IMG/VR virus record: IMGVR_UViG_3300017991_005544
Span: 1-64,000 of that record
Length of the DNA stretch: 64,000 bases
Strand: one strand, 5' to 3'
Source of the DNA: a virus
The notes beneath the pieces were generated by a model. The model saw only the letters and a list, made by a program, of their open reading frames with translations, ran no database searches and was not told the origin of the DNA. Shown one piece after another: positions 8,894 through 57,417 of this stretch; positions within the stretch are counted from its first letter, which is position 1, and the number at the start of each line of letters is the position of its first letter. A program made the translations under genes and the position numbers.

Positions 8894-9596
8894 TTCTGGT
8901 GTAGCCGATAGGGTCAGCATCATTATCCCGACCTACAAGCAATTGGGATTCGCCAGGGCCTGCATTGAGTCAGTCCTGGCGTACACCACCTATCCTGATT
9001 TCGAAATCATCGTGACGGATGATGCCAGTGGGGTCCCGCCTCTCCTGGCCTATCTTCGAGCCATGGCTGATGCGGGAAAGATCAGGCTCTTTCTACACAA
9101 GGAAAGGGGCCAGGTCAAGAACGTGATGAAGGTCTTCCCGGAGTCAACAGGCCAGTTCATCTGCTGGATGAACGATGACATCGAAATCCCGGAGGGTCAA
9201 GGCAACTGGCTCAACATTTTGGTCCAGGCCCTCAAAGATAATCGACCGGCAGTCGCCTCCGTCACGCCCATCATGTACCATGGCAGGGATAGGAAAACGA
9301 TCTATTGGGCCGGGAAAAAGATGGAGAACTGGAAGAACAAGTATCATGACCATCTCCACGAGCCCTTTGGGAGCCCAAGGATCCCGACCAAGCCTGTCGA
9401 ATGTTGTTACAACACGTTTGGTTGCTGCTTGACGTGGCGTAAGCTTGTCGAGGTTGTGCCGCTTGGATTCAAGGCCACCCACTATGGAGTTGACTCTGAG
9501 TGGTGCTTCAGGATCAGGAGGGCCCTCGGGCTCACCCACTACATGATCCCCGATACCTACGTGTATCATGCCAACATCTACAACAGGAGAATCTGA
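8868..9596 (+). CDS. Glycosyltransferase family 2 (GT-A fold)
   Basis: 242 residues. N-terminal VSIIIPTYKQ, then CIESVLAYTTYPDFEIIVTDDAS in pieces, and the metal-binding DxD-type site as WMNDDIEI, all typical of GT2 inverting transferases that use nucleotide-diphospho-sugars. A later WCFRIRRA resembles the usual D-x-[DE]-W-C-x-R region (GVDSEWCFR). ATG 8868 lies inside the end of the previous gene behind GGGAGGTG. Likely transfers a sugar to a growing surface glycan or a virion protein; substrate unknown. Confidence 0.85.
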   Translation: MEVRVPSLDSGVADRVSIIIPTYKQLGFARACIESVLAYTTYPDFEIIVTDDASGVPPLLAYLRAMADAGKIRLFLHKERGQVKNVMKVFPESTGQFICWMNDDIEIPEGQGNWLNILVQALKDNRPAVASVTPIMYHGRDRKTIYWAGKKMENWKNKYHDHLHEPFGSPRIPTKPVECCYNTFGCCLTWRKLVEVVPLGFKATHYGVDSEWCFRIRRALGLTHYMIPDTYVYHANIYNRRI

Positions 9597-9597
9597 G

Positions 9598-10188
9598 ATG
9601 GTGATCTCTGATCGATACGGATTCATCCTGATAACGCCTCCGAAGACGGGCTCTGAATCGCTCAAGCGACATCTCGAGAGGTTTGGGTTCCGTGCCCCAC
9701 AAAACATGTATAGCGCACACATGGTCCCTGGCGAGATCGTGAAGAAACCGTATGTCGGGATTGACAGATGGGATCAGTACATGAAGGTCTGCTTCATTAG
9801 GAACCCGTGGGACCGATATGTTTCGTGCTACCTGTACCTTAACCGGCATCGGGTTAGAGCGTGGGGCCAGACGGCCTTCGGCAGTTTCGAGACTTTTCTT
9901 CACACGGGTGGTTATGAGGCGATGCATTTGTCTGAGTTTTTGTTTTGGCCCAACGACACCATGTGTGTGGATTTTGTCGGGAGGTTCGAGAGATTCGATA
10001 CTGATGTCATGCATCTGTTTGATAAGCTTGGAATCCCGAGACCCCCGAGAGTAAGGCATGACAACAGGATAAACCATCCTGACCGCAAGCCATATCAAGA
10101 GTACTACACGGAACAGTGGATGATTGATGTTGTGGCAGAGCGGGAACAGAAATTACTCAGCGTCCATAACTACAGGTTTGGTGATTGA
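9598..10188 (+). CDS. Sulfotransferase (PAPS-dependent, Sulfotransfer_2-like), copy 1
   Basis: 196 residues. Motif for the 5'-phosphosulfate loop is TPPKTGSESL near the N-terminus; motif for the 3'-phosphate is CFIRNPWDRYVS. Both are diagnostic for PAPS-dependent sulfotransferases, which move sulfate to sugars or other hydroxyls. A downstream VDFVGRFERFDTD matches the family's C-terminal block. ATG 9598 starts one base after the previous stop; the longer frame from 9568 lies inside the glycosyltransferase gene. It is followed directly by a second, diverged copy. Confidence 0.85.
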   Translation: MVISDRYGFILITPPKTGSESLKRHLERFGFRAPQNMYSAHMVPGEIVKKPYVGIDRWDQYMKVCFIRNPWDRYVSCYLYLNRHRVRAWGQTAFGSFETFLHTGGYEAMHLSEFLFWPNDTMCVDFVGRFERFDTDVMHLFDKLGIPRPPRVRHDNRINHPDRKPYQEYYTEQWMIDVVAEREQKLLSVHNYRFGD

Positions 10189-10189
10189 T

Positions 10190-10792
10190 ATGATTGTGTC
10201 TGAAAAGCATAGTTTCATTTTTCTTGCCGTCCCTCATACCGGATCTTCTACGATCCAGAGGATGTTGGAGCCGATCCATGAAGGGTGGCACAACTTTGAA
10301 GAAAATAATCACATTACCCCAGACAGGCTCAGAGGCCATTCCGATATCATGGGCCTGTGCAAGTGGAACTGGTTCAGAAAGATCTGTTTCGTCAGGAATC
10401 CGTGGGATCGATATGTTGCGCTCTTCATGTATGCCAACAAGCTGCATCGTCAAGCCGACAGGCCTATCTACGAGACCTTTGGCGACTATGTGGCGAGCGG
10501 TGGCTACGAGGGAATGCATCACCACGAGTTCCTTCTCCACCGTGAAGGCACGATGGCAGTGGATTTTATCGGCAGGTTCGAGAATATCGAGCAAGACATC
10601 AAGAGGATGTATCGTTTCATTGGGTTACCCGAACCCAAAGAGATCCCCCATTTCAATAGATCAGAATACAACAACAGGCGGCACTACACCGAGTACTACC
10701 AAAAATGGATGGTCGATGCTGTTGCCTCCAGGGAAAAGTACGTGATCGAGAAGTTCGGTTACGTATACGGTCAGGATGGAGAGTCAAGATGA
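10190..10792 (+). CDS. Sulfotransferase (PAPS-dependent), copy 2
   Basis: 200 residues, paralogous to the preceding gene along its length: AVPHTGSSTI for the 5' loop, CFVRNPWDRYVA for the 3' site, GGYEGMHHHEFLL (compare GGYEAMHLSEFLF), VDFIGRFENIEQD, and a conserved YTEYYQKWMVD end (compare YQEYYTEQWMID). The lysine of the usual P-K-T-G loop is replaced by His, which may change activity or kinetics. ATG 10190 is one base after the upstream stop. The stop overlaps the next ATG. Confidence 0.83.
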   Translation: MIVSEKHSFIFLAVPHTGSSTIQRMLEPIHEGWHNFEENNHITPDRLRGHSDIMGLCKWNWFRKICFVRNPWDRYVALFMYANKLHRQADRPIYETFGDYVASGGYEGMHHHEFLLHREGTMAVDFIGRFENIEQDIKRMYRFIGLPEPKEIPHFNRSEYNNRRHYTEYYQKWMVDAVASREKYVIEKFGYVYGQDGESR

Positions 10793-11436
10793 GGATTCAT
10801 GTTCTTTGTCCGTTCTACAGGGTCCATTTTGCCAAGACTCTGCTTCATTACTTCAGGCCAGAGAAGATCGAGTATTACCCGATTGTGGCCCCCAAGGAAG
10901 ACATACTGTTCGAAGAAGATTGGGTCCATTCCGTCAGGGTCAAGGAGTTGAAGCCGGGGGAACAGTGCTTGAGGAAATTCAACGATTTCATCGAGACCCA
11001 AGAGATCTACGAAAACGATTACTACGGGTTTGCATGCGACGAAACCGTATATGAGCCAGGATTTTTCGATATGCTGAGGAGGCAGACGGCCAAAATCGTT
11101 ATGTGTTCATCTTATCGTGGGGATTCGGTCCCGAGAGATGGATCAATGCCACATCCTGCAACTCCTCTCATCATCAAGGACCAGAGAGACATCAGAGCAG
11201 GACACATCGGGCTTGGTCAGTACTTCGTGACCGGAGAGATCCTCAGGCTCGTCAGGTTCGGAATCAATAGCTCTTGTAGCGATGGGCATTTTGCCGAGAT
11301 GTTGAGACAAAACTTTGACGGCATGATTGCCTTTCTGCCGAACTGGTTTGTGTTTGCCAACTACCTTCAGCCCGGAAGGTTCACGAGAAAGGAAAGGTTT
11401 TTGAAACCCCATTGGGAACTGCCGAGGTACGTATGA
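10789..11436 (+). CDS. Putative glycosyltransferase-like protein
   Basis: 215 residues. ATG 10789 overlaps the previous stop (ATGA). Starts MRIHVLCPFYR like GT-A transferases, with a possible acidic site in YGFACDETVYEPGFFD, and a GLGQYFVTGEI segment. I cannot assign a family. The position between sulfotransferases and a radical SAM gene, with overlapping stop and start on both sides, suggests a step in the same glycan pathway. Confidence 0.45.
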   Translation: MRIHVLCPFYRVHFAKTLLHYFRPEKIEYYPIVAPKEDILFEEDWVHSVRVKELKPGEQCLRKFNDFIETQEIYENDYYGFACDETVYEPGFFDMLRRQTAKIVMCSSYRGDSVPRDGSMPHPATPLIIKDQRDIRAGHIGLGQYFVTGEILRLVRFGINSSCSDGHFAEMLRQNFDGMIAFLPNWFVFANYLQPGRFTRKERFLKPHWELPRYV

Positions 11437-12401
11437 AACGGATAAGAGAGAAACGAGTACCGTTGGGCCCGGCCCTGCCGTTGAGCACTCCGTTCGTGAT
11501 CAATGTGGATCCGGCTTCCTCCTGTAACCTTAGCTGCCGGTATTGTTTTCATGCCGAGGAAGAGCGCATGCCAAACAAAGGGGTCATGCGGTTCGGGCTC
11601 TTCAAGAAGGTCGTGTCGGATATCAAGGAGTTCGACAAACCCATCAAGACCCTCCGTCTTTATGCGTTTGGCGAGCCCCTTCTGAACCCGTGGTTTGCCG
11701 AGATGGTCAAGCTTGCCAAGCAAGAAGGTGTAGCGGAAGACATCGATACTACCACAAACGGGACCATCCTGAACCCGAGGCTCAACCGGCAGATCATCGA
11801 AGCCGGGATTGATAGGATCAACATCTCGGTCATGGGCATGAATGCTGACCAGTACGAGAGGTTCAGTCTGTACAGGATCGATTTCGAGAAATTCGTCAAC
11901 AACATTGCCGACCTCTACCACAATCGTGGCGATTGTGTCGTGTTCATCAAGATCAACGGAGATGCCATCAGTCAGGACGACCAGAAGAGATTCATCGACA
12001 CCTTTAGCCCCATCAGCGATGGGATTGCAATTGAGCACATCATGGACTGCTGGCATGACTTCGACATGAAGGGTGTCGAGCGAAATCGTGAGGTCGGCGT
12101 GTATGGTCAGCCGCTCACCAGGGTTGAGGTCTGTCCCTACATTTTCTACTCGTTCTGTGTCAACTTCGACGGGCAGGTGAGCGCATGCTTCCTGGATTGG
12201 AACAGGAGGCTCTTGGTTGGCAACGTCGAGGAGAATAGCCTGAAGGAAATCTGGAATGGTGACGGTCTCAAGACCCTGAGGGCACTACACCTGACGAAGA
12301 AGCGTTCAATGATTCCATCATGTAGGAACTGCAATCAACTGGAGGCCGGTGAGCCGGTCAACATCGACAACCTTGCGGAAGAACTGTTGAGGAAACTATG
12401 A
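11433..12401 (+). CDS. Radical SAM enzyme with SPASM-type C-terminus
   Basis: 322 residues. The [4Fe-4S]/SAM site is CNLSCRYCF near residue 33, followed by the GEPLLNP (G-E-P) loop and TTNGTILN. The C-terminus has further cysteines: VEVCPYIFYSFCVNFDGQV, SACFLDWN, and SCRNCNQLE, the pattern of a SPASM/twitch domain holding auxiliary clusters. SPASM enzymes modify peptides or sugars by radical chemistry; with glycosyltransferases around it, sugar modification such as dehydrogenation or epimerisation is a reasonable inference. ATG 11433 overlaps the previous stop. Confidence 0.85.
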   Translation: MKRIREKRVPLGPALPLSTPFVINVDPASSCNLSCRYCFHAEEERMPNKGVMRFGLFKKVVSDIKEFDKPIKTLRLYAFGEPLLNPWFAEMVKLAKQEGVAEDIDTTTNGTILNPRLNRQIIEAGIDRINISVMGMNADQYERFSLYRIDFEKFVNNIADLYHNRGDCVVFIKINGDAISQDDQKRFIDTFSPISDGIAIEHIMDCWHDFDMKGVERNREVGVYGQPLTRVEVCPYIFYSFCVNFDGQVSACFLDWNRRLLVGNVEENSLKEIWNGDGLKTLRALHLTKKRSMIPSCRNCNQLEAGEPVNIDNLAEELLRKL

Positions 12402-13588
12402 GATGTCCTGTCTGCCTGAATGATGTCCACGAGATCCTGTTGAGGCTCAAGTGCGGTAACCTGGATGGCTCGAGTCTTTATGATCCCGCCATGGTGGTGG
12501 GGTGCGCCAGGTGTGGTCACGTTTTCAACCTGCTGGCTCCTGATCAGGTCGCTGGCCTGGCCCGGTACTACGAGGATGAGTATTCCCTCAACAATGTGTA
12601 TTCCCCCAACAAGACGGGAGATCTTCCCGGCAGCATGAACCGAAATTCTTGCACCAGGTACGAGAATCTCTTCGGATTCATCAAACAGTACCTCGGTAAG
12701 GACGACAGGATCCTGGATGTCGGGTGTGCGACCGGGGGGTTCCTTGAATTTCTCAGCCTGAATGGATTCTGGAAGCTCCACGGGATAGAGCCATGTCCTC
12801 ATTATGTCCAGATTGCAGGCAAGAATTCGTTACTGAGCATTCAGGTCGGGGTGGCCGAAGATATCAAGTACAGCGACAACGTGTTTGATTTCGTCGTGGC
12901 GGATCAGGTGTATGAGCACCTGGTGGATCCTGCTCTGGCATTTGCCGAGGCCGCTCGTGTCATCAAACCTGACGGGTATCTTTGCCTGAGTGTGCCGAAC
13001 GCTTCCCTCTATGATGACCACATCTTCGATTTCTACTGGTTTCTCATGAGGGAGCATGTCCAGCATTTTGACCTGCCACACCTGTCGGCCATGGCGATCA
13101 AACATGGGTTCAGGCTCCTGGATGCCAGGACCACGTTTTCGAACATGACGAGCGAAAGCACGACCCTCCCGGCCCTGACGGCAGTCTTCCAGAAAAAGAA
13201 TCCGTTGCTCGGGTCGGTCGAACTGCACACCGGCCTGGTCGACAGAACCAAGGCCTACGTTGGGTTCTGCTACAAAGCCCTCGATCTGAGGCGTTGGCTC
13301 ATCCGGGATCTTGCCGTACGGCAGACTCCCGTGTATGTGTACGGGATCTCGAGAGAGTTTTTCTACATGTGGGAGAACACGAGCCTGAGGGAGTGCAATG
13401 TCCTGGGCCTTGTTGACGATACTGTCAGCAAGCAGCTATACTTTACGCATGACGGCAAGAAGATCCAGAGCAGCAAGGTCCTGAGGAATTCGAAAGATTC
13501 CGTCATCATCACGGCCACGGCACACATCAGGACCATCCGAGATCGGCTGAGGTCACTGAACCACAAGGGGAAAATCATTGAAATCTAG
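12398..13588 (+). CDS. SAM methyltransferase of the NDP-sugar C-methyltransferase type
   Basis: 396 residues in three parts: an N-terminal zinc-binding region (CPVCLND, then CARCGHVFN), a Rossmann methyltransferase core (ILDVGCATGGFLEFL, GIEPCPHYV, DQVYEHLVDP), and a C-terminal Rossmann-like domain (PVYVYGISREF, GLVDDTVSKQ, SVIITATAHI). This order matches sugar C-methyltransferases such as TcaB9 and relatives. Likely methylates a nucleotide sugar or a glycan; exact product unknown. Overlaps the previous gene by 4 bp and the next by 11 bp. Confidence 0.75.
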   Translation: MRCPVCLNDVHEILLRLKCGNLDGSSLYDPAMVVGCARCGHVFNLLAPDQVAGLARYYEDEYSLNNVYSPNKTGDLPGSMNRNSCTRYENLFGFIKQYLGKDDRILDVGCATGGFLEFLSLNGFWKLHGIEPCPHYVQIAGKNSLLSIQVGVAEDIKYSDNVFDFVVADQVYEHLVDPALAFAEAARVIKPDGYLCLSVPNASLYDDHIFDFYWFLMREHVQHFDLPHLSAMAIKHGFRLLDARTTFSNMTSESTTLPALTAVFQKKNPLLGSVELHTGLVDRTKAYVGFCYKALDLRRWLIRDLAVRQTPVYVYGISREFFYMWENTSLRECNVLGLVDDTVSKQLYFTHDGKKIQSSKVLRNSKDSVIITATAHIRTIRDRLRSLNHKGKIIEI

Positions 13589-14864
13589 GCTCAAGATCAC
13601 TCACTTGACAGTACATATGGGCGGAGGCATCGGTTCTGTGCTGTTCAACTGGATCAAATCAGATCATCAGAATGATCATGAAGTCCTGTGCCTGAGCTAC
13701 AACTACTACAACCACTTCGATCCGTCCATCGTGAAAGAGAACATGAGGACCCGGTATCTTGAAGTCGCAGAGAGAGTGGTCAAGTCGGATGTCGTGGTGG
13801 TTCACTTCTGGAATCATCCCTATCTGTTCGAGTGGTTCGTCAAGGCCGATATCCCGGATTGCCGGATGTGCATCTGGTCTCATGTGTCAGGGCTCAGTGC
13901 GCCCTACGTGTTTTCCGAGAAGCTGGTCGATTTTTCTGATGCCTTCCTGTTTGCCTCCCCCATCAGTTTCAAGACCCCGGAGATCAAGGCATTGCCCAAG
14001 AGGCTGATGAACAAGACAAACTACATCTGGACCACCGGCGACATCAATGAATACATGTCGATCAAGCCGGTCCCACACGATGGGTTCAACATCGGGTTTG
14101 TCGGGACCCTTGACTACTCGAAGCTCCACCCCAACTTCATCGACATGTGCAGCCGGATCAGGATCCCGGATGTCAAGTTCATCATGATTGGCGGCGGGTG
14201 CGATGCCGAGAGAATGAAGCAAGAGGTTGAGGCCAGGGGGCTCGACTCGAAGTTCTTTTTCGTCGGGGTCATCGAGGACATCAAACCCTATCTCGCCATC
14301 ATCGATATCTTCGGTTATCCCCTGAACCCTGATCATTTCGGGACCTGTGAGCAGGTCCTGGGCGAAGCCATTGCGGCTGGTGTGATCCCGATCGTGATGA
14401 AGAACCCGGCAGAGGAGTACATCCTGTTCAGGATGCTGTCTGATTTCGTGTGCCGTGACGAAACCGAATACGTCAGGAGCATTGAACGCTTCTACCGTGA
14501 ACGGGAACAGTACTCTGACTTCATCGATTCCATGAGGCACGAAATCGCCAGGCTTTACGATTCTGACAAAATGGTTAACGATTGGTGTACGGTTTTTGAG
14601 ACAGTTATGAGACATCCCAAGAGAAAGCGAGTCTGGACCATCTCGGATGAACGGGCCAGACTAGGCGGCTACGGCATCTTCCTCGAGTCATTGGGGCCGT
14701 ACGGCAGAATCTTTGAACACGGTAGCGAGGAAGAAATCAGACGACTGCTTGATTCAAACCTTCAGTGGAAATCGCTCAGCAAGGGGAGCCCCATCCAATA
14801 CCTCGAAGCCTTCCCGTACGACCCGAGGCTCCAGAGGCTGGTCGATCTAGTGAGGAAACCATGA
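13578..14864 (+). CDS. Glycosyltransferase (GT4/GT-B type)
   Basis: 428 residues. N-terminal HLTVHMGGGIGSVLFNWI is the GGhG loop of GT-B enzymes; the second domain has FNIGFVGTLDYSKLHPNF, IMIGGG, FFVGVIEDIKPYLAIIDIFGYPL in pieces, and the nucleotide-binding FGTCEQVLGEAIAAGVIPIV region with E-x7-E spacing. Start is taken as TTG 13578 because AAGGGG precedes it at good spacing and the first beta strand (LKITHLTVH) would be lost from ATG 13617. Part of the glycan cluster, retaining mechanism expected. Confidence 0.8.
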   Translation: MKSRLKITHLTVHMGGGIGSVLFNWIKSDHQNDHEVLCLSYNYYNHFDPSIVKENMRTRYLEVAERVVKSDVVVVHFWNHPYLFEWFVKADIPDCRMCIWSHVSGLSAPYVFSEKLVDFSDAFLFASPISFKTPEIKALPKRLMNKTNYIWTTGDINEYMSIKPVPHDGFNIGFVGTLDYSKLHPNFIDMCSRIRIPDVKFIMIGGGCDAERMKQEVEARGLDSKFFFVGVIEDIKPYLAIIDIFGYPLNPDHFGTCEQVLGEAIAAGVIPIVMKNPAEEYILFRMLSDFVCRDETEYVRSIERFYREREQYSDFIDSMRHEIARLYDSDKMVNDWCTVFETVMRHPKRKRVWTISDERARLGGYGIFLESLGPYGRIFEHGSEEEIRRLLDSNLQWKSLSKGSPIQYLEAFPYDPRLQRLVDLVRKP

Positions 14865-15946
14865 AGACGGTTCTTTACATATGTGGGGCCGGTCGAGGCC
14901 GGTACGAAGACGATGTGGCGTACATGAGGCTGATGGAGTTCATCTTTGAGAACTATCGTGGCGATATCAAGGTGAAGCTCCTGAGCGTAAATGGTGACAA
15001 GAAGATCACGGAGTTTGCGAATCTGTACGACTTCTATCTGATTGGTGGCGGAACCTGCATAACCAATAGGTTCCAACCTTATGCCGACCAGATAGCCGTC
15101 TCGTTGAGTGAGTTCGATCTCCGGTACGGATTTTTCGGCGTGAGCACATACCTCGACCCATTCCCCGGCCCCCAGAGGACAAACCTCAGGAGAGAGAAGA
15201 ACGCTCTCCTACGGGCTGAATTCTTTTCCGTCCGGGATTCAGCATCCGTCAGGTTCCTGAACGCCTGGCTTGGCACCAGCGAGGGACCTGAGCTTGACAT
15301 CGGGGTTTGTCACGACCCTGGCCTGACCGTGAAGCCCAGGGATGTGCATAACATCGGTCTTGATTGTACCGACTGGCACGAACGGGTCATCGGGATCAAT
15401 CTCCAGTACGGTCAGGACGACTCATTCGGAACCATTCGGATCGACCGGAAACAGTATCTCCGCCGGTTCACCGACTTCATCCAGAAGTTCAGATCGTCCT
15501 ACACGTTTCTTCACGTCCCGTTCAACGACACCGACACCTATCACGATCGGGAACTCGAGAACCATGGGGTCATCTGCCTGCCCTACATGACCCCCGACTA
15601 TACCGCCGGGTTCGTGAGCCTCTGTGATTATTTCGTGGGGACTCGACTTCACGCAGACGTAACGGCCACTGCACTCGAGGTCCCGTTCATCCCGCTCTGC
15701 GGATCCGAAGCCAACTACCAGTTCCTCGAACACATCGGATTCAGCCACAGGGACATCGTTATGCCAGATGATGTAAGCAACGGGATCGTGTTCCTGGAGG
15801 ATGAATTCATCAAGCTCCAGAACAACCAAAATAGGTTGTCCCTGGCAGGACAACTGAAAAAGGTTGTCCAGGGGGCCCGGCAGGACTACAGGTCCGAAGC
15901 CCACAGGTTGTGCCGGTGCATCCTGGAGCAAGACCTTGACATCTAG
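14861..15946 (+). CDS. Polysaccharide pyruvyl transferase family protein
   Basis: 361 residues from ATG 14861, overlapping the previous stop. The N-terminus (LYICGAGRG) and the FYLIGGGTCITN loop, the RDSASVRFL segment and the C-terminal VGTRLHADVTATALEVPFIPL block are the marks of the CsaB/PssM family, which adds ketal-linked pyruvate from phosphoenolpyruvate to sugars. Pyruvate adds a negative charge, as sulfate does. Last gene of the cluster; 80 bp without a gene follow before the lipoprotein. Confidence 0.82.
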   Translation: MKTVLYICGAGRGRYEDDVAYMRLMEFIFENYRGDIKVKLLSVNGDKKITEFANLYDFYLIGGGTCITNRFQPYADQIAVSLSEFDLRYGFFGVSTYLDPFPGPQRTNLRREKNALLRAEFFSVRDSASVRFLNAWLGTSEGPELDIGVCHDPGLTVKPRDVHNIGLDCTDWHERVIGINLQYGQDDSFGTIRIDRKQYLRRFTDFIQKFRSSYTFLHVPFNDTDTYHDRELENHGVICLPYMTPDYTAGFVSLCDYFVGTRLHADVTATALEVPFIPLCGSEANYQFLEHIGFSHRDIVMPDDVSNGIVFLEDEFIKLQNNQNRLSLAGQLKKVVQGARQDYRSEAHRLCRCILEQDLDI

Positions 15947-34483: not shown

Positions 34484-37411
34484 CTAACTACAATCACTAT
34501 ATCCGCAGTTCCTACAGGTTGAGCATCCGCCCTGTTGCTCGATGGGACCTTGGCACTCTGGGCATGCCCCCCTGATAGGAGTCTGCTGTACAGGGTGTTC
34601 CTTCATGAAGACGCTTTCCAGGACTTGAGCGACTCCATCGGCACAGGATAATACCTTGTTGTTTCCCATTCCTCTTGGAAGATGACAACTGATTCCTCGA
34701 AGCTGTTTCACGATATGTGACGGGTGGACCCCGCTCCTCAGAGCGAGAGAGACCATTCTTCCCATGGCTTCGCTTTGGCTCGATGCACATCCTCCTGCTT
34801 TACCGACCCTTGTGAAAACTTCGAATGGCTTCCCATTGCCATTCCAGTTGATCGTGACGTACATGGTCCCACAGCTTGTCTCCACCTTTTGCGTCAAGCC
34901 ACTGAGGGCCTGAGGTCTGACCTGAGGTTCGTGGGTATCCTCAGTATCGGGCTTTTTGATTTCAATCCCCTTCTCCAACACTTGTTCCTCCCGGCTCTTG
35001 TCCCGATAGATTGTGATTCCCTTACATCCTGCATTGTAAGCCGTCCTGTATGCATTGATAACATCCTCTACAGTTGAGTCACGAGTCATGTTTATCGTTT
35101 TGCTTACCGAATTACACGTGTAGGCCTGGAATGCCGCCTGCATGTTGATGTGCCACTCCGGGTCAATCTCATGCGAAGTTTTGAAGATGGACCTGATTTT
35201 TCGGTATGTGTCTCCACCATCAGGTAGCATGGGCAAATAACCGGCTTCGATTATTTTCTGTTTGAGTTCCGGCCTTTCAATCCATTTGACCCGGTCAAGG
35301 TGCTCGACAAGATCTTGGTTGAAATACTCAAACTCGGCCCCGTCAAGAACATTCATCTTCCTGTACGCAAGTGCGAACAAAGGCTCGATGCCGCTCGAGC
35401 ATCCGGCAATCATACTGATGGTCCCGGTGGGCGCAATGGTCGTGAGGGTGGCATTCCTTCTCTTGTTGATCATGAGCTTGTCTGCATCATACAGTTCGAA
35501 CGCATCGTACTGGTTTGCAAGCTCTTCACTCCTGATGATTGCCCTTGTCTTGATCGTTTCCATTACGGTGCAGGCCAGCTTGACGGCCCCTTGACTCTCG
35601 TACGGTATCCCCATCTTGATCAGAGCATCGGCCCATCCCATGATACCGATGCCAATCTTCCTGGTCCTCATGGTTGTGTCTTTGATGGTTCTGGTAGGAA
35701 ACACATTCACATCGATGACGGAGTCGAGAAAATCGACAATTGTCTCGACAGTACTTTGCAGGTGACCGAAGTTGATTTTGCCATCATCCATGATGAACCG
35801 GGTGAGATTGATACTGGCAAGGTTGCAGGATTCAAACGGCAGGAGAGGCTGTTCTCCGCAGGGATTTGTTGCTTCAATTTCTCCCAGGGGAGCCAGTGCC
35901 GTGTTGTTGATCCTGTCGATGAAGATGATGCCTGGATCTCCCGTGGTCCAGGCTTCTGTGGCGATCATCTCGAAGACCGTCTTGGCATCGAGTTCGGTTT
36001 CGACTTGCTTGGTCCTGGGGTTGATGATCTTGTATGTGGTGCCCCGCTCCAGGGCTTCCATGAATTCATCCGTGATTGCAACCGACGTGTTGAAATTGTT
36101 GAAACTCTTGCCGTCGTGCTTGCATTTGATGAAATCCAGGATGTCGGGGTGATCGCAATTATGAACAAAAACCCCATTGGCTGAAAAATTATGGTATTCA
36201 GCTAATGAAATATCATAAACCTCTTTAGCGACCCCAAATTCCTCAACCTTAATGACTCTATGATTACTTATCCGACGGTTTTTGTTCCATGGTGTTTTAC
36301 CGAGTTTAGCCTTTGCCATTTTTTCTTTCCATGCTAAGGCCTTGTCAACACCATAAACTTCTTCAAGTGTTTTTCCTTTTCTCTTTGATGATTCTATTTC
36401 TCTAGCTACGTTGAGATTGTCATTGTGTTTTTTTGCATGATCTGATCTAGTCAAAACTTCTATGTTTGATGGATCATTATCAAGATAATCTTCATTTTTG
36501 TGATGAGCATTTAACTCGTAAGAGACATTGAATCCAAGGATGTCTCTAGCAATAGCTCTATGCTCAAAAATAGCCTTGCCTCCGCTGCACTTTATCAGCC
36601 TTCTATGGTGCTTGCCATGTTTTCTTATGCTCTTAAAAAAGGCCATCAGACTATCGCCAAGTATCAATGATGATGCTTCCTTGTATTTCCCATTGCTCAA
36701 CATGAATCTGTGATCGGGAGTACAATCGACAAAATCATCATTATCAAACCAAACCCTCACCATTTTCCTATTTGTATCGGACACAAAAATCCTTTTGGCC
36801 TTTGTAATGTGGATTTCTCTAGTGTTTGGATCGCACGAATAAACATAAGGCTGTTGTCCGACCAAATCTTTTATTTTGATTTTGCCATTTATTGTGTTGA
36901 TCAAGGTTTCGCCATCAAGGCAACGCAAAACAGCCATGTTGGCTCCCCGTCGTTTTCCTCCCTGTTTGATCGTTTCGGTCGTGGCGTTGAAGACCTGCAT
37001 GAAACTAAGGGGGCCCGAAGAGATTCCATGGGTCTTCTTCACGATGTCCCCGGCAGGCCGGAGCCTCGAGAATGAAAAGCCGGTTCCGCCACCGGCCTTC
37101 TGGACCAGGGCCTGGGTCTTGGCCGCATCCATGATGCCGGTGATCGAATCAGGGATCGGGATCACAAAGCAGGCACTGAGCATACCGAGGTCAGTTCCGG
37201 CATTCATCAGGGTCGGACTGTTCGGCAGGAACTCGAGGTTTCGCATTGCCTCAAGAAACCGATCCATATCTGTCCCGTTTCTGGCTACAGACTTCGCAAC
37301 CCGGAGGAACATTTGATCAGGATCTTCGACGATTTCTCCATCATCGTTTCTCAAGAGGTATCGTCGTCCAAGAACACGAAGGGCCGTGTCACTGAGGATG
37401 GTGTGTGACAT
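34484..37411 (-). CDS. nrdJ: Class II (B12-dependent) ribonucleotide reductase with intein
   Basis: 975 codons; about 720 residues after intein removal, normal for NrdJ. Marks: LPNSPTLMNAG, GMLSACFVIP (first redox Cys), catalytic NPCGEQPLLPFESCNLASIN (N-C-E triad), FPTRTIKDTT, TLTTIAPTGTISMIAGCSSGIEP, and the C-terminal redox/zinc tail CPECQG, CSTCRNCGYSDC. Makes dNDPs or dNTPs using adenosylcobalamin, with or without oxygen. The intein interrupts the sequence at MAVLR/CDHPD. The host must supply or the phage must help supply B12; note the CobT/CobS-like pair nearby. Confidence 0.93.
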   Translation of the reverse strand: MSHTILSDTALRVLGRRYLLRNDDGEIVEDPDQMFLRVAKSVARNGTDMDRFLEAMRNLEFLPNSPTLMNAGTDLGMLSACFVIPIPDSITGIMDAAKTQALVQKAGGGTGFSFSRLRPAGDIVKKTHGISSGPLSFMQVFNATTETIKQGGKRRGANMAVLRCLDGETLINTINGKIKIKDLVGQQPYVYSCDPNTREIHITKAKRIFVSDTNRKMVRVWFDNDDFVDCTPDHRFMLSNGKYKEASSLILGDSLMAFFKSIRKHGKHHRRLIKCSGGKAIFEHRAIARDILGFNVSYELNAHHKNEDYLDNDPSNIEVLTRSDHAKKHNDNLNVAREIESSKRKGKTLEEVYGVDKALAWKEKMAKAKLGKTPWNKNRRISNHRVIKVEEFGVAKEVYDISLAEYHNFSANGVFVHNCDHPDILDFIKCKHDGKSFNNFNTSVAITDEFMEALERGTTYKIINPRTKQVETELDAKTVFEMIATEAWTTGDPGIIFIDRINNTALAPLGEIEATNPCGEQPLLPFESCNLASINLTRFIMDDGKINFGHLQSTVETIVDFLDSVIDVNVFPTRTIKDTTMRTRKIGIGIMGWADALIKMGIPYESQGAVKLACTVMETIKTRAIIRSEELANQYDAFELYDADKLMINKRRNATLTTIAPTGTISMIAGCSSGIEPLFALAYRKMNVLDGAEFEYFNQDLVEHLDRVKWIERPELKQKIIEAGYLPMLPDGGDTYRKIRSIFKTSHEIDPEWHINMQAAFQAYTCNSVSKTINMTRDSTVEDVINAYRTAYNAGCKGITIYRDKSREEQVLEKGIEIKKPDTEDTHEPQVRPQALSGLTQKVETSCGTMYVTINWNGNGKPFEVFTRVGKAGGCASSQSEAMGRMVSLALRSGVHPSHIVKQLRGISCHLPRGMGNNKVLSCADGVAQVLESVFMKEHPVQQTPIRGACPECQGPIEQQGGCSTCRNCGYSDCS
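36158..36922 (-). mobile_element. Intein in ribonucleotide reductase, with HNH domain
   Basis: 255 residues, from Cys 164 to Asn 418 of the precursor. N-terminal splicing block CLDGETLINT, block B VDCTPDHRFML, C-terminal VYDISLAEYHNFSANGVFVHN in pieces, ending H-N with Cys as the next extein residue. Inside is an HNH homing nuclease: ELNAHHKNEDYLDNDPSNIE and SDHAKKHN. The DNA is AT-rich against the extein. All residues needed for protein splicing appear present. Confidence 0.92.
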
Positions 37412-39000: not shown

Positions 39001-39999
39001 CTATTCGGTCATGATACCTTTTAGTTTTGATCTTGTCGAGTATAAATCGGTGACGGTCCTTCTGGCCCCCATGAGCCTCAGGAACTCGTCATCCGGGATG
39101 GAATCCGGGTCTTGGTCTTCCTCCTGGATGACCGCCACCGACAATACCTTACCCTCGATGAACTTCATGTTTTTCAAATGGCGTTTGAATCCTGACTCCC
39201 CTACATCCCCGTCCAACATGAACGTGATCTCGGGGAACCGGCATTCTGACAGCAGGAGGGCTTGATTTCGGCTCAAAAACGAGCCCAACAGGGCAACCGA
39301 GGGGTAACCCCGCCCCAAGACCCTAAGGCAGTCAAAGATGCCCTCCACGACCACGAGAGGCCTATTCTCGAATTCCTCGGGCCCCTGGGTATTCATCCGG
39401 TCGTACCAGTAGATCATCCGGTCGTTCATACCGCCCGGCGGATTCAAGGTTTTGGGCTTCTGACCCGTGGCAGAATAGGCCACAAAGCTCCTGTTCCCGT
39501 CACATCGGAACGGAAAGATCAGCCTGCCGTTGTATTTGCCCCCGTTGCAGACCCGGATGCCTGCCCGGAAGGCCAGGCCGAACGGGACCTGCCGGTCCTT
39601 CAGGAAAACCGGAAATGCCGATTCCGAAATGAGCTTCGAGGTCGGAGGCGGCTGAATCAAGATCTTCATCCCGAGGGTGTTCTGGAGTTCGTAGTGGAAT
39701 CCCTCGACGCTCTTGAGATGTTCCTTGATATCCTCGATGACCGGGACATCCGGCATCTCCTCTTCCATGAGCCTCTGGGCTTCCCTGGCGGTCGTCTTCC
39801 TGACGATCGAGACCAACACGACCAGGTTTCCAGTGACACCACATCGATGGCAGATCCACAGGCCGGTCCTCGTGTTGAAGTACAGGTGATTGGTCGGATT
39901 GGGGCACTCAGGATCCACGCAATCCATGATGACTTCGTCCGAGTTGGTCGGCTTGTAATCAAGCCTCAGGCGTTTCAGAATCGGTAACAGGTTCTTCAT
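39001..39999 (-). CDS. DNA primase (DnaG-type zinc finger and TOPRIM)
   Basis: 332 residues. N-terminal zinc site: CVDPECPNPTNHLYFN, CHRCGVTG. TOPRIM features: RLIFPFRCDG, PLVVVEGIFDCLRV (Glu), ALLGSFLS, ITFMLDGDVGESGF (D-x-D). Synthesises RNA primers for the replicase. Overlaps the gene above by 41 bp, with the zinc finger coding region sharing DNA with that gene's end. Confidence 0.85.
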   Translation of the reverse strand: MKNLLPILKRLRLDYKPTNSDEVIMDCVDPECPNPTNHLYFNTRTGLWICHRCGVTGNLVVLVSIVRKTTAREAQRLMEEEMPDVPVIEDIKEHLKSVEGFHYELQNTLGMKILIQPPPTSKLISESAFPVFLKDRQVPFGLAFRAGIRVCNGGKYNGRLIFPFRCDGNRSFVAYSATGQKPKTLNPPGGMNDRMIYWYDRMNTQGPEEFENRPLVVVEGIFDCLRVLGRGYPSVALLGSFLSRNQALLLSECRFPEITFMLDGDVGESGFKRHLKNMKFIEGKVLSVAVIQEEDQDPDSIPDDEFLRLMGARRTVTDLYSTRSKLKGIMTE

Positions 40000-41674
40000 T
40001 TTGCTTCACCCACACCGTGAGTCTGCCGTATCGTGATTCAAACAAATCGATGACTTCGCCTTCCTTCAGGTCAGGTTCTGTCTCTTCCACCAGGTGATAG
40101 GTCGGGAACCCTTCGAAGACCTCCATGATGGCCGGTCGATCCAGTTCGCTTGACAAATAGCTGGCCGTGAAACTCGAACGCACTGCGTTCGCTTTTCTTC
40201 CTTTTAGGGTCGGGGCATCACCAACAAAGATGATGAGCTTTCCGCCCGGTCTCAAGTATCTGTCGGCCCGGAGCACAAAGTCTCTGAGATCGTCAGGTGT
40301 GTTCAGAGCGAAACTACAGACGATGAAATCGAGGGGGTTATCCTGTTTGAATTCATCACTGAAGAAATTCCCCACTTCATCTGGATCCATCATGGGGTCG
40401 ACATCGATCTTCTTTATGTCGATGTCTTCAGGATACCGATGATAACCACAGCCGACATCGAGACCCTTGCCCACCATGTGTTTCTTCACGACATCGTAGA
40501 CTTGATGAAAGATGCTGCCCATCATGCCTTTGATTTCCGGGATGCTGACTCCCTGGACCTTGTTCATCAGGTACTCGACGGCAAAACAAATCTTCTGTGG
40601 GTCGAGCAATGAGAAACAAGGCGATGGGTCCCCCTTGGGGCACGGATCACTATCGTGGACAAAACAAGGAGCACATACCGGGCATGCGTTCAGGCCGATG
40701 GCATGGTGGTAGTACTTCATCCTGAGGACTGCCGGGAACGGCCCGTAGAGACCAATGACCGGCACCCTCAGGCCCCCGGCGATATGGATCATGGCACTGT
40801 CCGGTGCGATAATAACGTCACAATGACTCGCAACAGCCATCGAGGTCTTCAGACTCATGGCATTGGCAGGCCCATCGATGATCCTGTTCGGTGCGTTCTC
40901 TTTGAATCCCTCGACGATCGGCCCCGTAATGTTTACCTGGGCTTCAGAACCAAACAACACGATCTTGATCTTCTCATTCCTCATCAGCATGTCCATCACG
41001 TCGATGAGTTTCTGGTATGGGTAGGTCCTGATCGGGGTACTGGTTGCGATCTGGATACCGATCAGGATGTCTTCCTTCGTGACCTTGTGTCGTTGTAGGA
41101 ATTCTTCGGCGGATTTCCTTTCAGGTTCCGTGAGGAAAACATCAGGAAGTTTCTCTCTGGCCGGGATCTTGGTGAAGTCAAATCCAAACTTGTTGAGAAA
41201 CAGGTCATAGGCATTCAGTTGTTCGGCCTTCGGATTCCCTTCGATGATTTGTTCGAACATGAGGTGATAGTCGACGCTCTCCAGGAGACTCTGGTCGAGA
41301 GGGAGTTGATGCAGGAAATCGATGTAGAAGACATCCTTGTAAAGATCCATGTATTTCCCACCAACCGCAACATGAAGCTTGCAGTCAGGATACAGTTTTC
41401 TCAGCAACCGAAGGGGTGGCATCATGAACATGAGATCTCCAATGCCGCCATGTCTCCAGACCAGCAAGGATTTCCCATTAAGATCCTGGCCTCGATACTC
41501 GTTATAGTACCTGCCGAGTCCATGGATCCTGTTGATGTGGGTCGGCATGAGCTTCGAGAGTTGCTGGACAATCATCTCGTTCACCAGGTAGAATTTGCCG
41601 GGCTTCAGGGCCTTGGCCCAGGGAGTGCCCCGCTCCATCACGATTCCTTCACGTACGACCTCTATGAATTTCAT
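39959..41674 (-). CDS. Glycosyltransferase family 9 fused to SAM methyltransferase
   Basis: 571 residues. Residues about 65-380 are a GT9 (heptosyltransferase-like) GT-B enzyme: LLVWRHGGIGDLMFMMPPLR in pieces, ILIGIQIATSTPIRTYP, IKIVLFGSEAQ, VASHCDVIIAPDSAMIHIAG, VPVIGLYGP. Residues about 400-560 are a class I methyltransferase: KGLDVGCGYHRYPEDI, IVCSFALNTPDDL, YLRPGGKLIIFV. Glycosyltransferase plus methyltransferase in one chain suggests building a methylated sugar on an acceptor. It lies in the replication block, away from the glycan cluster, so it may act on DNA bases or envelope glycans. Confidence 0.8.
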   Translation of the reverse strand: MKFIEVVREGIVMERGTPWAKALKPGKFYLVNEMIVQQLSKLMPTHINRIHGLGRYYNEYRGQDLNGKSLLVWRHGGIGDLMFMMPPLRLLRKLYPDCKLHVAVGGKYMDLYKDVFYIDFLHQLPLDQSLLESVDYHLMFEQIIEGNPKAEQLNAYDLFLNKFGFDFTKIPAREKLPDVFLTEPERKSAEEFLQRHKVTKEDILIGIQIATSTPIRTYPYQKLIDVMDMLMRNEKIKIVLFGSEAQVNITGPIVEGFKENAPNRIIDGPANAMSLKTSMAVASHCDVIIAPDSAMIHIAGGLRVPVIGLYGPFPAVLRMKYYHHAIGLNACPVCAPCFVHDSDPCPKGDPSPCFSLLDPQKICFAVEYLMNKVQGVSIPEIKGMMGSIFHQVYDVVKKHMVGKGLDVGCGYHRYPEDIDIKKIDVDPMMDPDEVGNFFSDEFKQDNPLDFIVCSFALNTPDDLRDFVLRADRYLRPGGKLIIFVGDAPTLKGRKANAVRSSFTASYLSSELDRPAIMEVFEGFPTYHLVEETEPDLKEGEVIDLFESRYGRLTVWVKQNEEPVTDSETPEA

Positions 41675-53755: not shown

Positions 53756-53917
53756 CGGGTGTCTTGGGGACCTTGACTCGCTTTCACCAAGTGGGTTTCT
53801 TCCGCCTTTTGACTCGCTTTCACTCATTGGGTTTCTTCAGCCTGATGACTCGCTTTCACAGCTTGGGTTTCTTGCCGGTTATGACTCGCTTTCGTTCGAT
53901 GGGTTTCTTTGAGCCAG
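53756..53917 (-). repeat. TIGR-like array 1: 36-bp units with two 10-bp repeats and 8-bp spacers
   Basis: Read on the + strand: repeat E = TGACTCGCTT at 53774, 53810, 53846, 53882; repeat L = TGGGTTTCTT at 53792, 53828, 53864, 53900; all spacers exactly 8 bp. After E: TCACCAAG, TCACTCAT, TCACAGCT, TCGTTCGA. After L: CCGCCTTT, CAGCCTGA, GCCGGTTA, TGAGCCAG. A degenerate L (CGGGTGTCTT, 53756) with spacer GGGGACCT begins the array. On the - strand the repeats read AAGCGAGTCA and AAGAAACCCA, both fitting AAG-x-x-A-x-x-CA. It lies 23 bp downstream of the nuclease gene's stop and is likely transcribed with it. Confidence 0.9.
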
Positions 53918-53940
53918 TGGCCGTGGGGCCGGGCCCCGCA

Positions 53941-54885
53941 TTACGCAACCTTGACGGTTGGTTCTACCTGGGGCCAACCATAATCCTCTGGCTTGTCGAT
54001 ATCGATGTGGCCGAGGTGTTCCTGAACATACGGCTCACTCACGGGCAACCCTTTGAGCTTCCGGGCCACAATCCAGTAGTGGCAAAGGAACCGCTTCATC
54101 ATGACCCGGATGGCATCATCGTGCCGATGGCCTTTCATTGTATCCTTCCAGGCCTTTTCTACGAGTAGCCCATTATTGAGTCGGGTCTTGACTACCAGTT
54201 CGCTCTTGGAGGTCTTCTCTTTCCTCTGATCATAAATGTCCCGGTAAGGGCTCCGGCTCTTGATTATGGAAATAGCCGATCTGTACAGGGCGGTACGGAG
54301 CTTTTTATTTCCTCCTCCCGCCTTGCCTTTTTCGTATCGACTGTGAGAGGGCTTGTCGTACCCGACATACTGCCATAACGACGAAGGGTGATCTGCCTTC
54401 TCGACATTAATGTAGACCGCCAGGTAAGCTGCCGTCCCAGGCCCGAGGCTCCTGACGCACATGGTAGCATCGATGATGGGGTCGTTGTGCTTCACCTTCA
54501 TGAGTCTCTTTTCGATCTCTTTTTCAGCCTCTTTTTCTTTCTTGCTGATTTTTTTCAGTATCTTCTCCAGCACTTCAATATCTTGAGGATCGAGGTCATC
54601 GGTCTCTCGTTTGAAGGCGAGCAGCTGATTCGAAATCTTGATCCGTAGCTTCAGGTGTTGCTCCAGGATATCGATGGCCTGCTTGAGGTACTTCATCCAT
54701 TCGGGCCGCACACGCTTGATCCCGTGTATCTCCATGTGCTCGACAGGATGGAGGAGCCGGTAGTTTTCATCGTCGTAACCGCCTCCTTTAGCCTTGGGCA
54801 ATGGATCTCGGTGGGTGTCGATCAAACTTGGGTCGCCGGTGTAACCTTTCTTCCTTTTCAGATCTGTTTTTCTTCCCATCTTCAT
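53941..54885 (-). CDS. TasH-like protein: HNH nuclease + coiled coil + IS110/Nop-type domain
   Basis: 314 residues, ATG 54885 behind AAGGAG. Residues about 23-54: HNH (DTHRDPLPKAKGGGYDDEN, then LLHPVEHMEIHG; H25, N41, H50/H54). Residues 62-132: long charged helices. Residues 138-235: domain like the C-terminal half of IS110-family transposases and Nop proteins: CVRSLGPGTAAYLAVYI (helix-hairpin-helix), LWQYVGYDKPSHSRYEKG, GGGNKKLRTALYRSAIS. The N-terminal RuvC-type DEDD domain of IS110 is absent. Flanked on both sides by 36-bp arrays. This combination matches TIGR-Tas systems, where a Nop-type domain binds a 36-nt guide RNA with two short spacers and the HNH cuts target DNA. Family assignment is inference from pattern. 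Confidence 0.8.
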   Translation of the reverse strand: MKMGRKTDLKRKKGYTGDPSLIDTHRDPLPKAKGGGYDDENYRLLHPVEHMEIHGIKRVRPEWMKYLKQAIDILEQHLKLRIKISNQLLAFKRETDDLDPQDIEVLEKILKKISKKEKEAEKEIEKRLMKVKHNDPIIDATMCVRSLGPGTAAYLAVYINVEKADHPSSLWQYVGYDKPSHSRYEKGKAGGGNKKLRTALYRSAISIIKSRSPYRDIYDQRKEKTSKSELVVKTRLNNGLLVEKAWKDTMKGHRHDDAIRVMMKRFLCHYWIVARKLKGLPVSEPYVQEHLGHIDIDKPEDYGWPQVEPTVKVA

Positions 54886-54900
54886 ACTCCTTTCGTGTTG

Positions 54901-55234
54901 TGGGTTTCTTCTACTTTGTGACTCGCTTTCACCAAGTGGGTTTCTTGCGTCCCTTGACTCGCTTCGAAACCGTGGGTTTCTTCCATTCCTTGACTCGCTT
55001 ACGATCGATGGGTTTCTTTACCTCTCTGACTCGCTTGCACGCAATGGGTTTCTTCTGCTGTTTGACTCGCTTCGATGTAATGGGTTTCTTCTGCTTTTTG
55101 GCTCGCTTCTCCTTTTTGAGTTTCTTGTAACGAGTGACTCGCTTTCGAGTTGTGGGTTTCTTAGGCCTTCTGACTCACTTTTGCTTTTTGGGTTTCTTGC
55201 AACGACTGATTCGCTTTCTTGTTGTGGGTTTCTT
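54901..55234 (-). repeat. TIGR-like array 2: ten L and nine E repeats, 36-bp period
   Basis: Read on the + strand: L repeats at 54901, 54937, 54973, 55009, 55045, 55081, 55117 (TGAGTTTCTT), 55153, 55189, 55225; E repeats at 54919, 54955, 54991, 55027, 55063, 55099 (TGGCTCGCTT), 55135, 55171 (TGACTCACTT), 55207 (TGATTCGCTT). All 18 spacers are exactly 8 bp. After L: CTACTTTG, GCGTCCCT, CCATTCCT, TACCTCTC, CTGCTGTT, CTGCTTTT, GTAACGAG, AGGCCTTC, GCAACGAC. After E: TCACCAAG, CGAAACCG, ACGATCGA, GCACGCAA, CGATGTAA, CTCCTTTT, TCGAGTTG, TTGCTTTT, TCTTGTTG. Repeat decay is at the end far from the nuclease gene. The array lies upstream of that gene. Confidence 0.92.
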
Positions 55235-55337
55235 ACCTCCTTTTGTTCCACGAACTGAAGACCTCCTCCAGCACTCCCAACACCAGGATGCCAAAGATGA
55301 TCCAACCAAACACTTTCATGATCAGTATGATGGTCAT
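55233..55337 (-). CDS. 34-residue membrane peptide
   Basis: ATG 55337 (or ATG 55319) behind GGAGA; stop TAA 55233-55235. MTIILIMKVFGWIIFGILVL then GVLEEVFSSWNKRR: one transmembrane helix with a basic end. The stop overlaps the last L repeat of array 2 by 2 bp. One of two tiny membrane peptides in tandem. Confidence 0.5.
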   Translation of the reverse strand: MTIILIMKVFGWIIFGILVLGVLEEVFSSWNKRR

Positions 55338-55430: not shown

Positions 55431-56012
55431 TTACCATTTGGTTCCGACCAGAACGGTGTGCATGTTGATCCCGACGTTCTGTTCCGATAGACCTGAGTTC
55501 GACAGGTGAGTCAGCCGGTACTCGAGCAGGACGGATCGTTTGCTCGAGGCCTGGAACCTGGCCCCGGCCCCAACCGAGGGGGTGAAGTTCAGTGGCAGGC
55601 CCATCCCTTCCACCGACATGCTGTTCCACGAGATGCCTGCCATTAGCTTCAGGTATGGCGAGAAACCCTTGACCAGCTGATACGGAAACGTCAGGACCGG
55701 CTGAGCCACCAGCAGCAGGCCGTTGCCCTCGTTGGTCCTGTAGCCCAACATGATCTCGCCCTCCAGGACGGCCCACAGGTCTCCTGCCAGGTGTCTGCCG
55801 TACAGGTCGGTGCTCAACGTCGAGAGCCATACCTCGACCTTCTCGGTGCTGGCGAACAATCCGGCAGGCTGAATGGCGAACCCCGTCATGGTCGTGATCT
55901 CGGCTCCCTCGGCAGGATCCAGCCAGTCGGCCACGTGACCGCAGCAGGTCTGCACCGTCGTCATGACGACCACAAACATGATGACGAACAGGATGTATTC
56001 ATACCACTTCAT
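55431..56012 (-). CDS. PagL/lipid A deacylase-like outer membrane protein
   Basis: 193 residues. N-terminal membrane/signal segment (YILFVIMFVVVMTTVQTCC), then repeated amphipathic strands of a small barrel, ending FTPSVGAGARFQ, SVLLEYRLTHLSNSGL, EQNVGIN. The E-x-R-x-x-H-x-S-N-x-G pattern holds the His-Ser active site of lipid A 3-O-deacylases (PagL). Such an enzyme would remove an acyl chain from lipid A in the outer membrane, a possible way to change the host surface. Unusual for a phage. Confidence 0.65.
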   Translation of the reverse strand: MKWYEYILFVIMFVVVMTTVQTCCGHVADWLDPAEGAEITTMTGFAIQPAGLFASTEKVEVWLSTLSTDLYGRHLAGDLWAVLEGEIMLGYRTNEGNGLLLVAQPVLTFPYQLVKGFSPYLKLMAGISWNSMSVEGMGLPLNFTPSVGAGARFQASSKRSVLLEYRLTHLSNSGLSEQNVGINMHTVLVGTKW

Positions 56013-56241
56013 CGTCCTTCTCCTTCATCCTCATGATGGTTTGGTGTAGCCGGGCGGAATGCAGCATGACCTCGAGAGTGTTGTGGGCGAGCTTGACGTT
56101 CTCCTTCACCAGGTCGAGCCCTATCCAGTCTAAATCCCGTACCGCCGACTGATAGATCTCGAGCGACTGGATCGTGCCGGTCATGCGGGAGAAGTCGTTC
56201 AAGATCTCTTTGAGTTCGCCTTTCCAGTTGCGGTTGCTCAT
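55999..56241 (-). CDS. Small helical protein
   Basis: 80 residues from ATG 56241. Helical throughout (MTGTIQSLEIYQSAVRDLDW, LVKENVKLAHNTLEVMLHSA). Overlaps neighbours. Not recognised. Confidence 0.45.
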   Translation of the reverse strand: MSNRNWKGELKEILNDFSRMTGTIQSLEIYQSAVRDLDWIGLDLVKENVKLAHNTLEVMLHSARLHQTIMRMKEKDDEVV

Positions 56242-56450
56242 GGTGTCCTCCCGAACATCAGGATGGTCTTGACAAATAGGTCCAGGGCTTCCTCGATGGT
56301 ACTGGCATCTCCGCAGTTGCGACACCTGATGAATCCGTGGTCCCCTCGATGACTCCATCGGAAGCTACACGTCCTGCACGTCACGTTCAGGATCGGTATG
56401 CTGACGTGATCCTTGCCCTTGAGCTTTACAATCGAGTCAATCGAGATCAT
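56238..56450 (-). CDS. Zinc-ribbon protein
   Basis: 70 residues. VTCRTCSFRWSHRGDHGFIR, CRNCGDASTIEEA: two C-x-x-C pairs. Likely a small nucleic acid-binding ribbon. Confidence 0.55.
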   Translation of the reverse strand: MISIDSIVKLKGKDHVSIPILNVTCRTCSFRWSHRGDHGFIRCRNCGDASTIEEALDLFVKTILMFGRTP

Positions 56451-56462
56451 AAAATTCCTTTG

Positions 56463-56533
56463 TGGTAGGGGGAGGGAGGAATTGAACCTCCACGCCGGTC
56501 ATGACCCTCGCTCTACCGTTGAGCTACTCCCCC
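56463..56533 (-). tRNA. tRNA-like gene, probably CAU anticodon, defective anticodon arm
   Basis: On the - strand: acceptor GGGGGAG (56533-56527) with CTCCCCC (56474-56468), D arm TAGCTCAACGGTAGAGC (good A box), T arm GGAGG-TTCAATT-CCTCC, and TACCA at the 3' end. The middle, GAGGGTCATGACCGGCGT, is about five bases short of a normal tRNA and gives no proper 5-bp anticodon stem; CAT is the best-placed anticodon. Probably a decayed tRNA-Met or -Ile2. Its 5' end overlaps the stop codon of the radical SAM gene. Confidence 0.5.
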
Positions 56534-57417
56534 TATAACAGTATTGCTCCGCTGTATTGCCAATCGTACCGGAGGTGACCGTCCGGGAAAAAGATCAACT
56601 GCCTGAGTTCGTCATTTCTGGTCGGGTCGATCGTGAGACAATCCGAGAGACAGACGTTCTGCCCGTGGTAGTCGTACACGATGGCCCCGTGCATCAGTTC
56701 CATCAGGCGGGTGCCTTCATAATCAAGCTCGTTTTTGATTTCTTCTATCTGGGAAGGGTCGAGGGCATGATCGGCAACAAATCGGCTGATGTTGTAGTCC
56801 TTGCAAACCTCGGGTCTCTTGATGTTGCGGATCGTGAGTTGCTCGACCTTGTGGTCCTGGCACCACTGGATCATGTTCTCGACATCACCGACGTGCTCGA
56901 TGTAGCCCTTGACCAACATGCAGGTGATCCTGACTGAAAAGCCCCTGTCGTGAAGTCGATCCACAACCTTGCCGAGGGGGTAGCCCATCCCATAGATCTC
57001 TGCGTTCATGGTTGGCATCCAATGAACAACCGAGAGGCAGATGGTCGTGAGGCCGTCGTGGCTCCAGACTCCCATGAATTCATCATAGTCTTTTTCGTGG
57101 GTATGGAACCGGATCCCGTTGGTCTGGAGTTCAACGAACGGGAAGTTCCAGGCCTTGAGTCTTCCGACGGTACGGCTGATCTCGACAGGGTGCAGGGTAG
57201 GCTCGCCCTTGCCGGTCAACAAGACGGTCGAGACCCCGCAGTCCTTTGCGTAGTCGCAGGCCGATTTGAACCGGCGGAAATATTGTGGGTGAGTGCCTTC
57301 GGTATCCATGCCGTAGTCCCGGATGCCTTCGTCGTGCGTCATCTTGGAGACACAAAACGGGCACCTGGCGTTACACTTGTGGTTGCCGATCACCATCGAG
57401 AGGGTCTGGATCTTCAT
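56533..57417 (-). CDS. Radical SAM protein
   Basis: 294 residues. Cluster site KCNARCPFCVSKM (C-x3-C-x2-C), VLLTGKGEPTLHP (G-E-P), ELQTNGIRFH, CMLVKGYIEHVGDVENMI; later Cys in NVCLSDC and PEVCKD. Resembles MoaA/NifB-like small radical SAM proteins and 7-carboxy-7-deazaguanine synthase-like phage proteins, but no auxiliary domain is clear. Stop TAG overlaps the tRNA-like gene. Substrate unknown. Confidence 0.8.
   Translation of the reverse strand: MKIQTLSMVIGNHKCNARCPFCVSKMTHDEGIRDYGMDTEGTHPQYFRRFKSACDYAKDCGVSTVLLTGKGEPTLHPVEISRTVGRLKAWNFPFVELQTNGIRFHTHEKDYDEFMGVWSHDGLTTICLSVVHWMPTMNAEIYGMGYPLGKVVDRLHDRGFSVRITCMLVKGYIEHVGDVENMIQWCQDHKVEQLTIRNIKRPEVCKDYNISRFVADHALDPSQIEEIKNELDYEGTRLMELMHGAIVYDYHGQNVCLSDCLTIDPTRNDELRQLIFFPDGHLRYDWQYSGAILL

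Follow-up and report, generated by a model that had tools for sequence, protein, structure and literature searches.

The window, i.e., the whole stretch of 64 kb that was analysed, belongs to a virus record of 66,698 bases and contains genes for a DNA polymerase III alpha subunit, a DnaB helicase and its loader, SbcCD-like proteins, an RNA ligase, and a tail protein. A pagL-like gene is situated on its minus strand. The features considered in the following are:

9568-15946, plus strand: genes for a sulfotransferase, a radical SAM/SPASM protein, a methyltransferase, a group 1 glycosyltransferase (GT1), and a pyruvyl transferase (Pfam)
39959-41674, minus strand: fusion of a GT9 (heptosyltransferase-like) and a methyltransferase-like part (PF01075, E 1.3e-15)
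53941-54885, minus strand: transposase-like gene (phrog_4285, E 1e-31)
55431-56012, minus strand: pagL-like gene, 193 aa (open reading frame with ATG at 56012 and stop codon ending at 55431)
55464-55523, minus strand: active-site segment E164-N183, EYRLTHLSNSGLSEQNVGIN (aligned with PagL 2erv, plasmid PagLs, and 95 sequences)
55944-56006, minus strand: codons of an N-terminal hydrophobic helix (residues 3-23), a probable export signal (predicted helix and hydrophobicity)
55999-56358, minus strand: upstream open reading frame, 119 aa, function unassigned, the end of which overlaps the pagL-like start by 14 bp
56020-56025, minus strand: Shine-Dalgarno-like AAGGAG, 7 nt 5' of the pagL-like ATG (from the sequence)

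The pagL-like gene is probably expressed, because it combines the AAGGAG site and the 14 bp start overlap with a codon usage that falls inside the spread of the other phage genes on the minus strand; the overlap suggests a single transcript with the 119 aa reading frame, for which no PHROG match was obtained at E <= 1. A second virus contig (34.7 kb) encodes an identical PagL-like protein and shows 99.99% identity over the 11.5 kb compared. Since the gene thus lies in a virus record among phage genes, recurs in a near-identical second contig, and possesses a phage-like codon usage, a Shine-Dalgarno site, and an overlapping start, it is regarded as the phage's own, in line with the initial annotation.

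That annotation had furthermore read the gene together with a glycan cluster as a sign of deep remodelling of the outer membrane. Glycan genes are present (at 9.6-15.9 kb and 40-41.7 kb), but they lie 14-46 kb off and share no operon with the pagL-like gene, so that any joint action is something we infer. The distant glycan genes are compatible with envelope modification, the link to the pagL-like gene being unproven.

Some further features were noted in the window. A tandem repeat of 36 bp units (TGACTCGCTT, a variable part, TGGGTTTCTT, and a second variable part) is found within 53774-55235, where around 4 units occupy 53774-53909 and another 9-10 occupy 54886-55235; the array adjoins the transposase-like gene, which seems to sit inside it. 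The N-terminus of this transposase-like protein appears HNH-like by eye. It had no Pfam match at E <= 1e-3 and no plasmid match, a peptide-pattern scan of viral contigs recovered only the near-identical contig, and none of 297 Acidobacteriota genomes matched in a scan run without a positive control and hence uninformative on the host. A radical SAM protein is encoded near the pagL-like gene (56533-57417; QueE-like PHROG, E 1e-4), and its relatives, with 36-41% identity, are situated on three other virus contigs, none of which contains a PF09411 match above cut-off. The large subunit of ribonucleotide reductase (34484-37411) is split by an intein that includes an HNH-like endonuclease segment.

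Family membership and predicted fold

Concerning family membership, sequence, profile, and predicted fold all agree with the PagL-family identity (PF09411, an outer-membrane barrel) proposed initially. The 193 aa protein matches Pfam PF09411 (PagL) over residues 105-191 with 55.5 bits (cut-off 23, E 8.6e-15). A phmmer search matched it to the Pseudomonas aeruginosa PagL of structure 2erv with E 0.0016, a profile from 95 relatives reached the same protein with E 1.8e-15, and PF09411 is matched by all 95 aligned members. For PF13505 (OMP_b-brl), taken as a test for the OmpX/Ail/Lom barrels, the score of 18.4 bits lies below the cut-off of 28.7, and NCBIfam yielded no match to the protein. The active-site motif had been read exactly: it runs E164-Y-R166-L-T-H169-L-S171-N172-S-G174 and is followed by L-S-E-Q-N179-V-G181-I-N183. 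The six-frame translation of the 64 kb window contains the full pattern E.R..H.SN.G a single time, and none of 40 codon-block shuffles contains it. For the short core H.SN.G, around 0.7 chance occurrences are expected in such a translation of the window, such that this core by itself is not evidence and the family evidence decides.

The fold was predicted with AlphaFold2 on the alignment of 95 sequences. The model (mean pLDDT 86, pTM 0.74) comprises a helix at residues 3-23, eight long barrel strands, and two short ones. Among PDB structures, Foldseek placed PagL 2erv first (E 1e-7, TM 0.80-0.81 normalised by PagL), as did VIA-align (Z 20.3, rmsd 1.7 A over 143 residues), followed by OprF (Z 17.6), NspA (17.1), OmpX (about 12), and Ail (about 11). 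Because small barrels are common, a Z of around 17 constitutes the background for such a shape, and PagL exceeds it. The small barrel of the initial annotation is thus predicted as an eight-stranded outer-membrane barrel of the PagL fold. The sequence motif settles the family assignment, and it is virtually certain that the protein is a PF09411 barrel.

The hydrophobic stretch at the N-terminus, initially described as a membrane signal, is real, with a maximum 19-residue Kyte-Doolittle mean of 2.2 at a segment predicted to be helical (residues 3-23). A clear SPase I or lipobox cleavage site was not found by eye, which speaks against the interpretation preferred below. A hydrophobic N-terminus with a Cys immediately preceding the presumed signal end is observed in the present protein and in the phage PagL-like proteins of loci L104, L084, L041, and L020 (examples are FASMCSKAEA, ICAFCTRSEA, and FQCVKAAEL); this recurring Cys may reflect chance or an unusual export signal.

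Active site and position 183

In the alignment with P. aeruginosa PagL, the catalytic His and Ser of that enzyme correspond to His169 and Ser171, and Asn172, Asn179, and Gly181 are likewise kept in the phage protein. The position of Glu140, the third residue of the catalytic triad in P. aeruginosa PagL, is occupied in the 2erv alignment by Asn183 instead of Glu, so that the segment reads GIN in the phage protein versus GIES in the Pseudomonas enzyme. The PagL active-site and structure papers are those of Geurtsen in 2005 and Rutten in 2006, and the latter reportedly names the Glu of GIES as third member of the triad. Of the designation as a PagL-like lipid A deacylase, the PF09411 membership and the retained His and Ser therefore stand, but the replacement of the catalytic Glu140 by Asn183 had been overlooked.

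The relatives of the protein were gathered with a DNA pattern for EYRxxHxSNx6NxG (bacterial), in which E164, Y165, R166, H169, S171, N172, N179, and G181 are fixed and position 183 is left free. Conservation of these eight positions among the 95 sequences carries no weight, since the selecting pattern itself fixes them. Column 183 of the alignment, which covers many phyla, contains Asp in 47 sequences, Asn in 41, and Glu in 7, and nothing else; Asn183, 14 residues past the His, is thus one of the three residues of the family at this place. As only these three occur although the position lies outside the selecting pattern, it must be constrained and Asn must be ordinary there. In this alignment, Asn at position 183 is a normal residue of the wider PF09411 family. 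Despite such tolerance within the family, enzymatic activity cannot be assumed with Asn in place of the catalytic Glu, and this replacement counts against the interpretation preferred below. Judged from its sequence, the protein is a PF09411 member with an intact His/Ser site, yet not a canonical His-Ser-Glu PagL.

Relatives in bacteria and in other phages

The best cellular match stems from Omnitrophota, with 38% identity over 106 residues; that this is the highest value among the cellular relatives also counts against the preferred interpretation. Pseudomonadota, Verrucomicrobiota, and Acidobacteriota follow as best cellular matches, and a peptide-pattern scan of genome contigs did not find a close cellular relative. 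In the phylogenetic tree, the protein is situated on a long branch of unsupported placement (SH-aLRT 50). The gene was likely acquired from a Gram-negative bacterium.

Among phages, the 50,697 records of INPHARED contained no match to the 193 aa protein, to a segment of 2erv, or to the prophage PagL described below, and the plasmids of PLSDB none to the 193 aa protein. IMG/VR, searched with DNA patterns of the PagL active site, yielded at least 120 stretches (three matches from one further active-site pattern scan were rejected as chance). Among the matches listed, about 100 encode PagL of the Pseudomonas type, with its canonical GIES (53 distinct proteins). In addition, ten divergent viral contigs exhibit PF09411 above cut-off and four more lie just below it. 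The surroundings of the Pseudomonas-type pagL were checked in detail at three prophage loci: at L025 it has DnaB/DnaC on one side and both terminase subunits, small and large, on the other, at L060 it is situated between an anti-repressor region and the terminase, and at L047 it lies 3' of DnaT, DnaB, and a T5orf172 protein. Homologues of the L047-type DnaB or tail-tip protein were present in the fetched DNA of 34 of 102 loci among the matches listed. The region between replication and terminase genes is a frequent site of lysogenic cargo in temperate phages, and this prophage pagL, absent from INPHARED, is a candidate lysogenic-conversion gene. Of the ten divergent copies, two (L084 and L104) adjoin a phage DNA polymerase or primase-helicase. 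Given both the Pseudomonas-type prophage copies and the divergent viral copies in IMG/VR, phage-borne PagL-like genes are recurrent.

Proposed function and comparison with known systems

PagL is an outer-membrane enzyme (PMC11401268) that cleaves lipid A at its position-3 ester by hydrolysis (PMC12571757; PMC11401268). For the phage protein, it is fairly probable that it is an active hydrolase, and we lean, with less assurance, towards lipid A as its substrate. As a whole, the observations appear best explained by a phage-carried outer-membrane deacylase of the PagL family with which LPS would be remodelled during infection, an interpretation favoured here with modest confidence. The gene, ultimately from a Gram-negative bacterium, would have been taken up by the phage and its product exported by means of the N-terminal hydrophobic signal and inserted into the host outer membrane as the predicted eight-stranded barrel. 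There, His169 and Ser171 at the end of strand 7 would release an ester-bound acyl chain from lipid A by hydrolysis, probably assisted by Asn172 and Asn179, and Asn183 would take the position of the catalytic acid; judging from the family, the chain cleaved would most likely be the 3-O-acyl. The phage might benefit from an altered outer leaflet or receptor, changing the adsorption of competing or progeny phages (superinfection exclusion), or alternatively from a looser, weaker envelope. A broader version, less likely than not, is that phages have repeatedly gained lipid A deacylation (temperate prophages of the Pseudomonas type as well as several unrelated phages from the environment) and thereby change LPS for superinfection exclusion or envelope weakening, with an Asn-type site in the present case.

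Two other interpretations are both unlikely. The protein could be a PagL-derived barrel in which catalysis is lost or nearly so, serving as a phage outer-membrane protein that, e.g., keeps other phages from adsorbing, as Lom/OmpX-like phage barrels would. The Asn at the position of the catalytic acid, the long branch of the protein in the tree, and the frequency of phage outer-membrane barrels of other families in BFVD would fit this, but His169, Ser171, Asn172, Asn179, and Gly181 are all retained, and position 183 holds one of the three residues found in the 95 sequences, whereas a dead copy should drift there. Alternatively, the protein could be an esterase of the PagL fold that is active but on another substrate (e.g., outer-membrane phospholipids or an unusual kind of lipid A made by an uncultured phylum) and weakens the envelope at lysis. 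Both the D/N-type active site and the closest cellular relatives, from Omnitrophota, Verrucomicrobiota, and Acidobacteriota, of whose PF09411 members none is characterised to our knowledge, are in favour of this. No lysis gene was recognised next to the pagL-like gene among the proteins scanned, however, and the characterised PF09411 members have lipid A as their sole documented substrate in PMC11401268 and PMC12571757. That the locus is not a phage gene but bacterial DNA taken for viral through an error of assembly or classification is highly improbable, for although the record is a metagenome contig that no isolate phage in INPHARED matches, gene and flanks recur in the second contig, the gene is surrounded by phage genes for RNA ligase, DnaB helicase, DNA polymerase III, and the tail, and the codon usage fits phage genes; contamination is ruled out by the near-identical contig and this codon usage.

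Under the preferred interpretation of a deacylase, the virus, which is one of uncultured bacteria, may alter the outer membrane of its host via a PagL-family barrel. If active, the protein would allow a direct test of whether phages remodel the LPS lipid anchor in order to exclude rivals or to ease their exit, and the Asn-type site, common to many uncultured phyla, raises the question of whether the PagL triad truly needs an acid. A phage lipid A deacylase is of interest as it is directly testable and apparently recurrent. The alteration of O-antigen sugars by phages is known. The PagL family is well known and its carriage by phages little documented; searches of open-access papers returned no title or abstract on a phage-encoded lipid A deacylase.

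Despite the general similarity to P. aeruginosa PagL 2erv, with which the phage protein shares PF09411, the eight-stranded barrel, the His and Ser in HxSN, the NxG four residues past HxSNxG, and an ungapped spacing of the site, there are clear differences: the identity amounts to about 20%, Asn183 replaces Glu140, EYR precedes the His in the phage protein, its N-terminal half is divergent, and its gene is situated in a phage. With the PF09411 proteins of Omnitrophota, Acidobacteriota, Verrucomicrobiota, and other groups it has EYRxxHxSNx6NxG[x][DNE] and up to 38% identity over 106 residues in common, whereas those are cellular and the phage protein stands on its long, unplaced branch. The small barrels Lom, OmpX, and Ail, some of them prophage-encoded, are equally eight-stranded outer-membrane barrels, but their fold scores are lower (Z about 12 for OmpX, about 11 for Ail), and we know of no HxSN site in them. 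The Pseudomonas-type prophage pagL (L025, L047, L060) is, like the present gene, a PF09411 gene carried by a phage; it differs in its canonical GIES, in a protein about 75% like the Pseudomonas plasmid PagL, and in its setting in temperate phages, where replication genes and terminase genes flank it. The present gene is a new and distinct example among the recurrent phage-borne copies.
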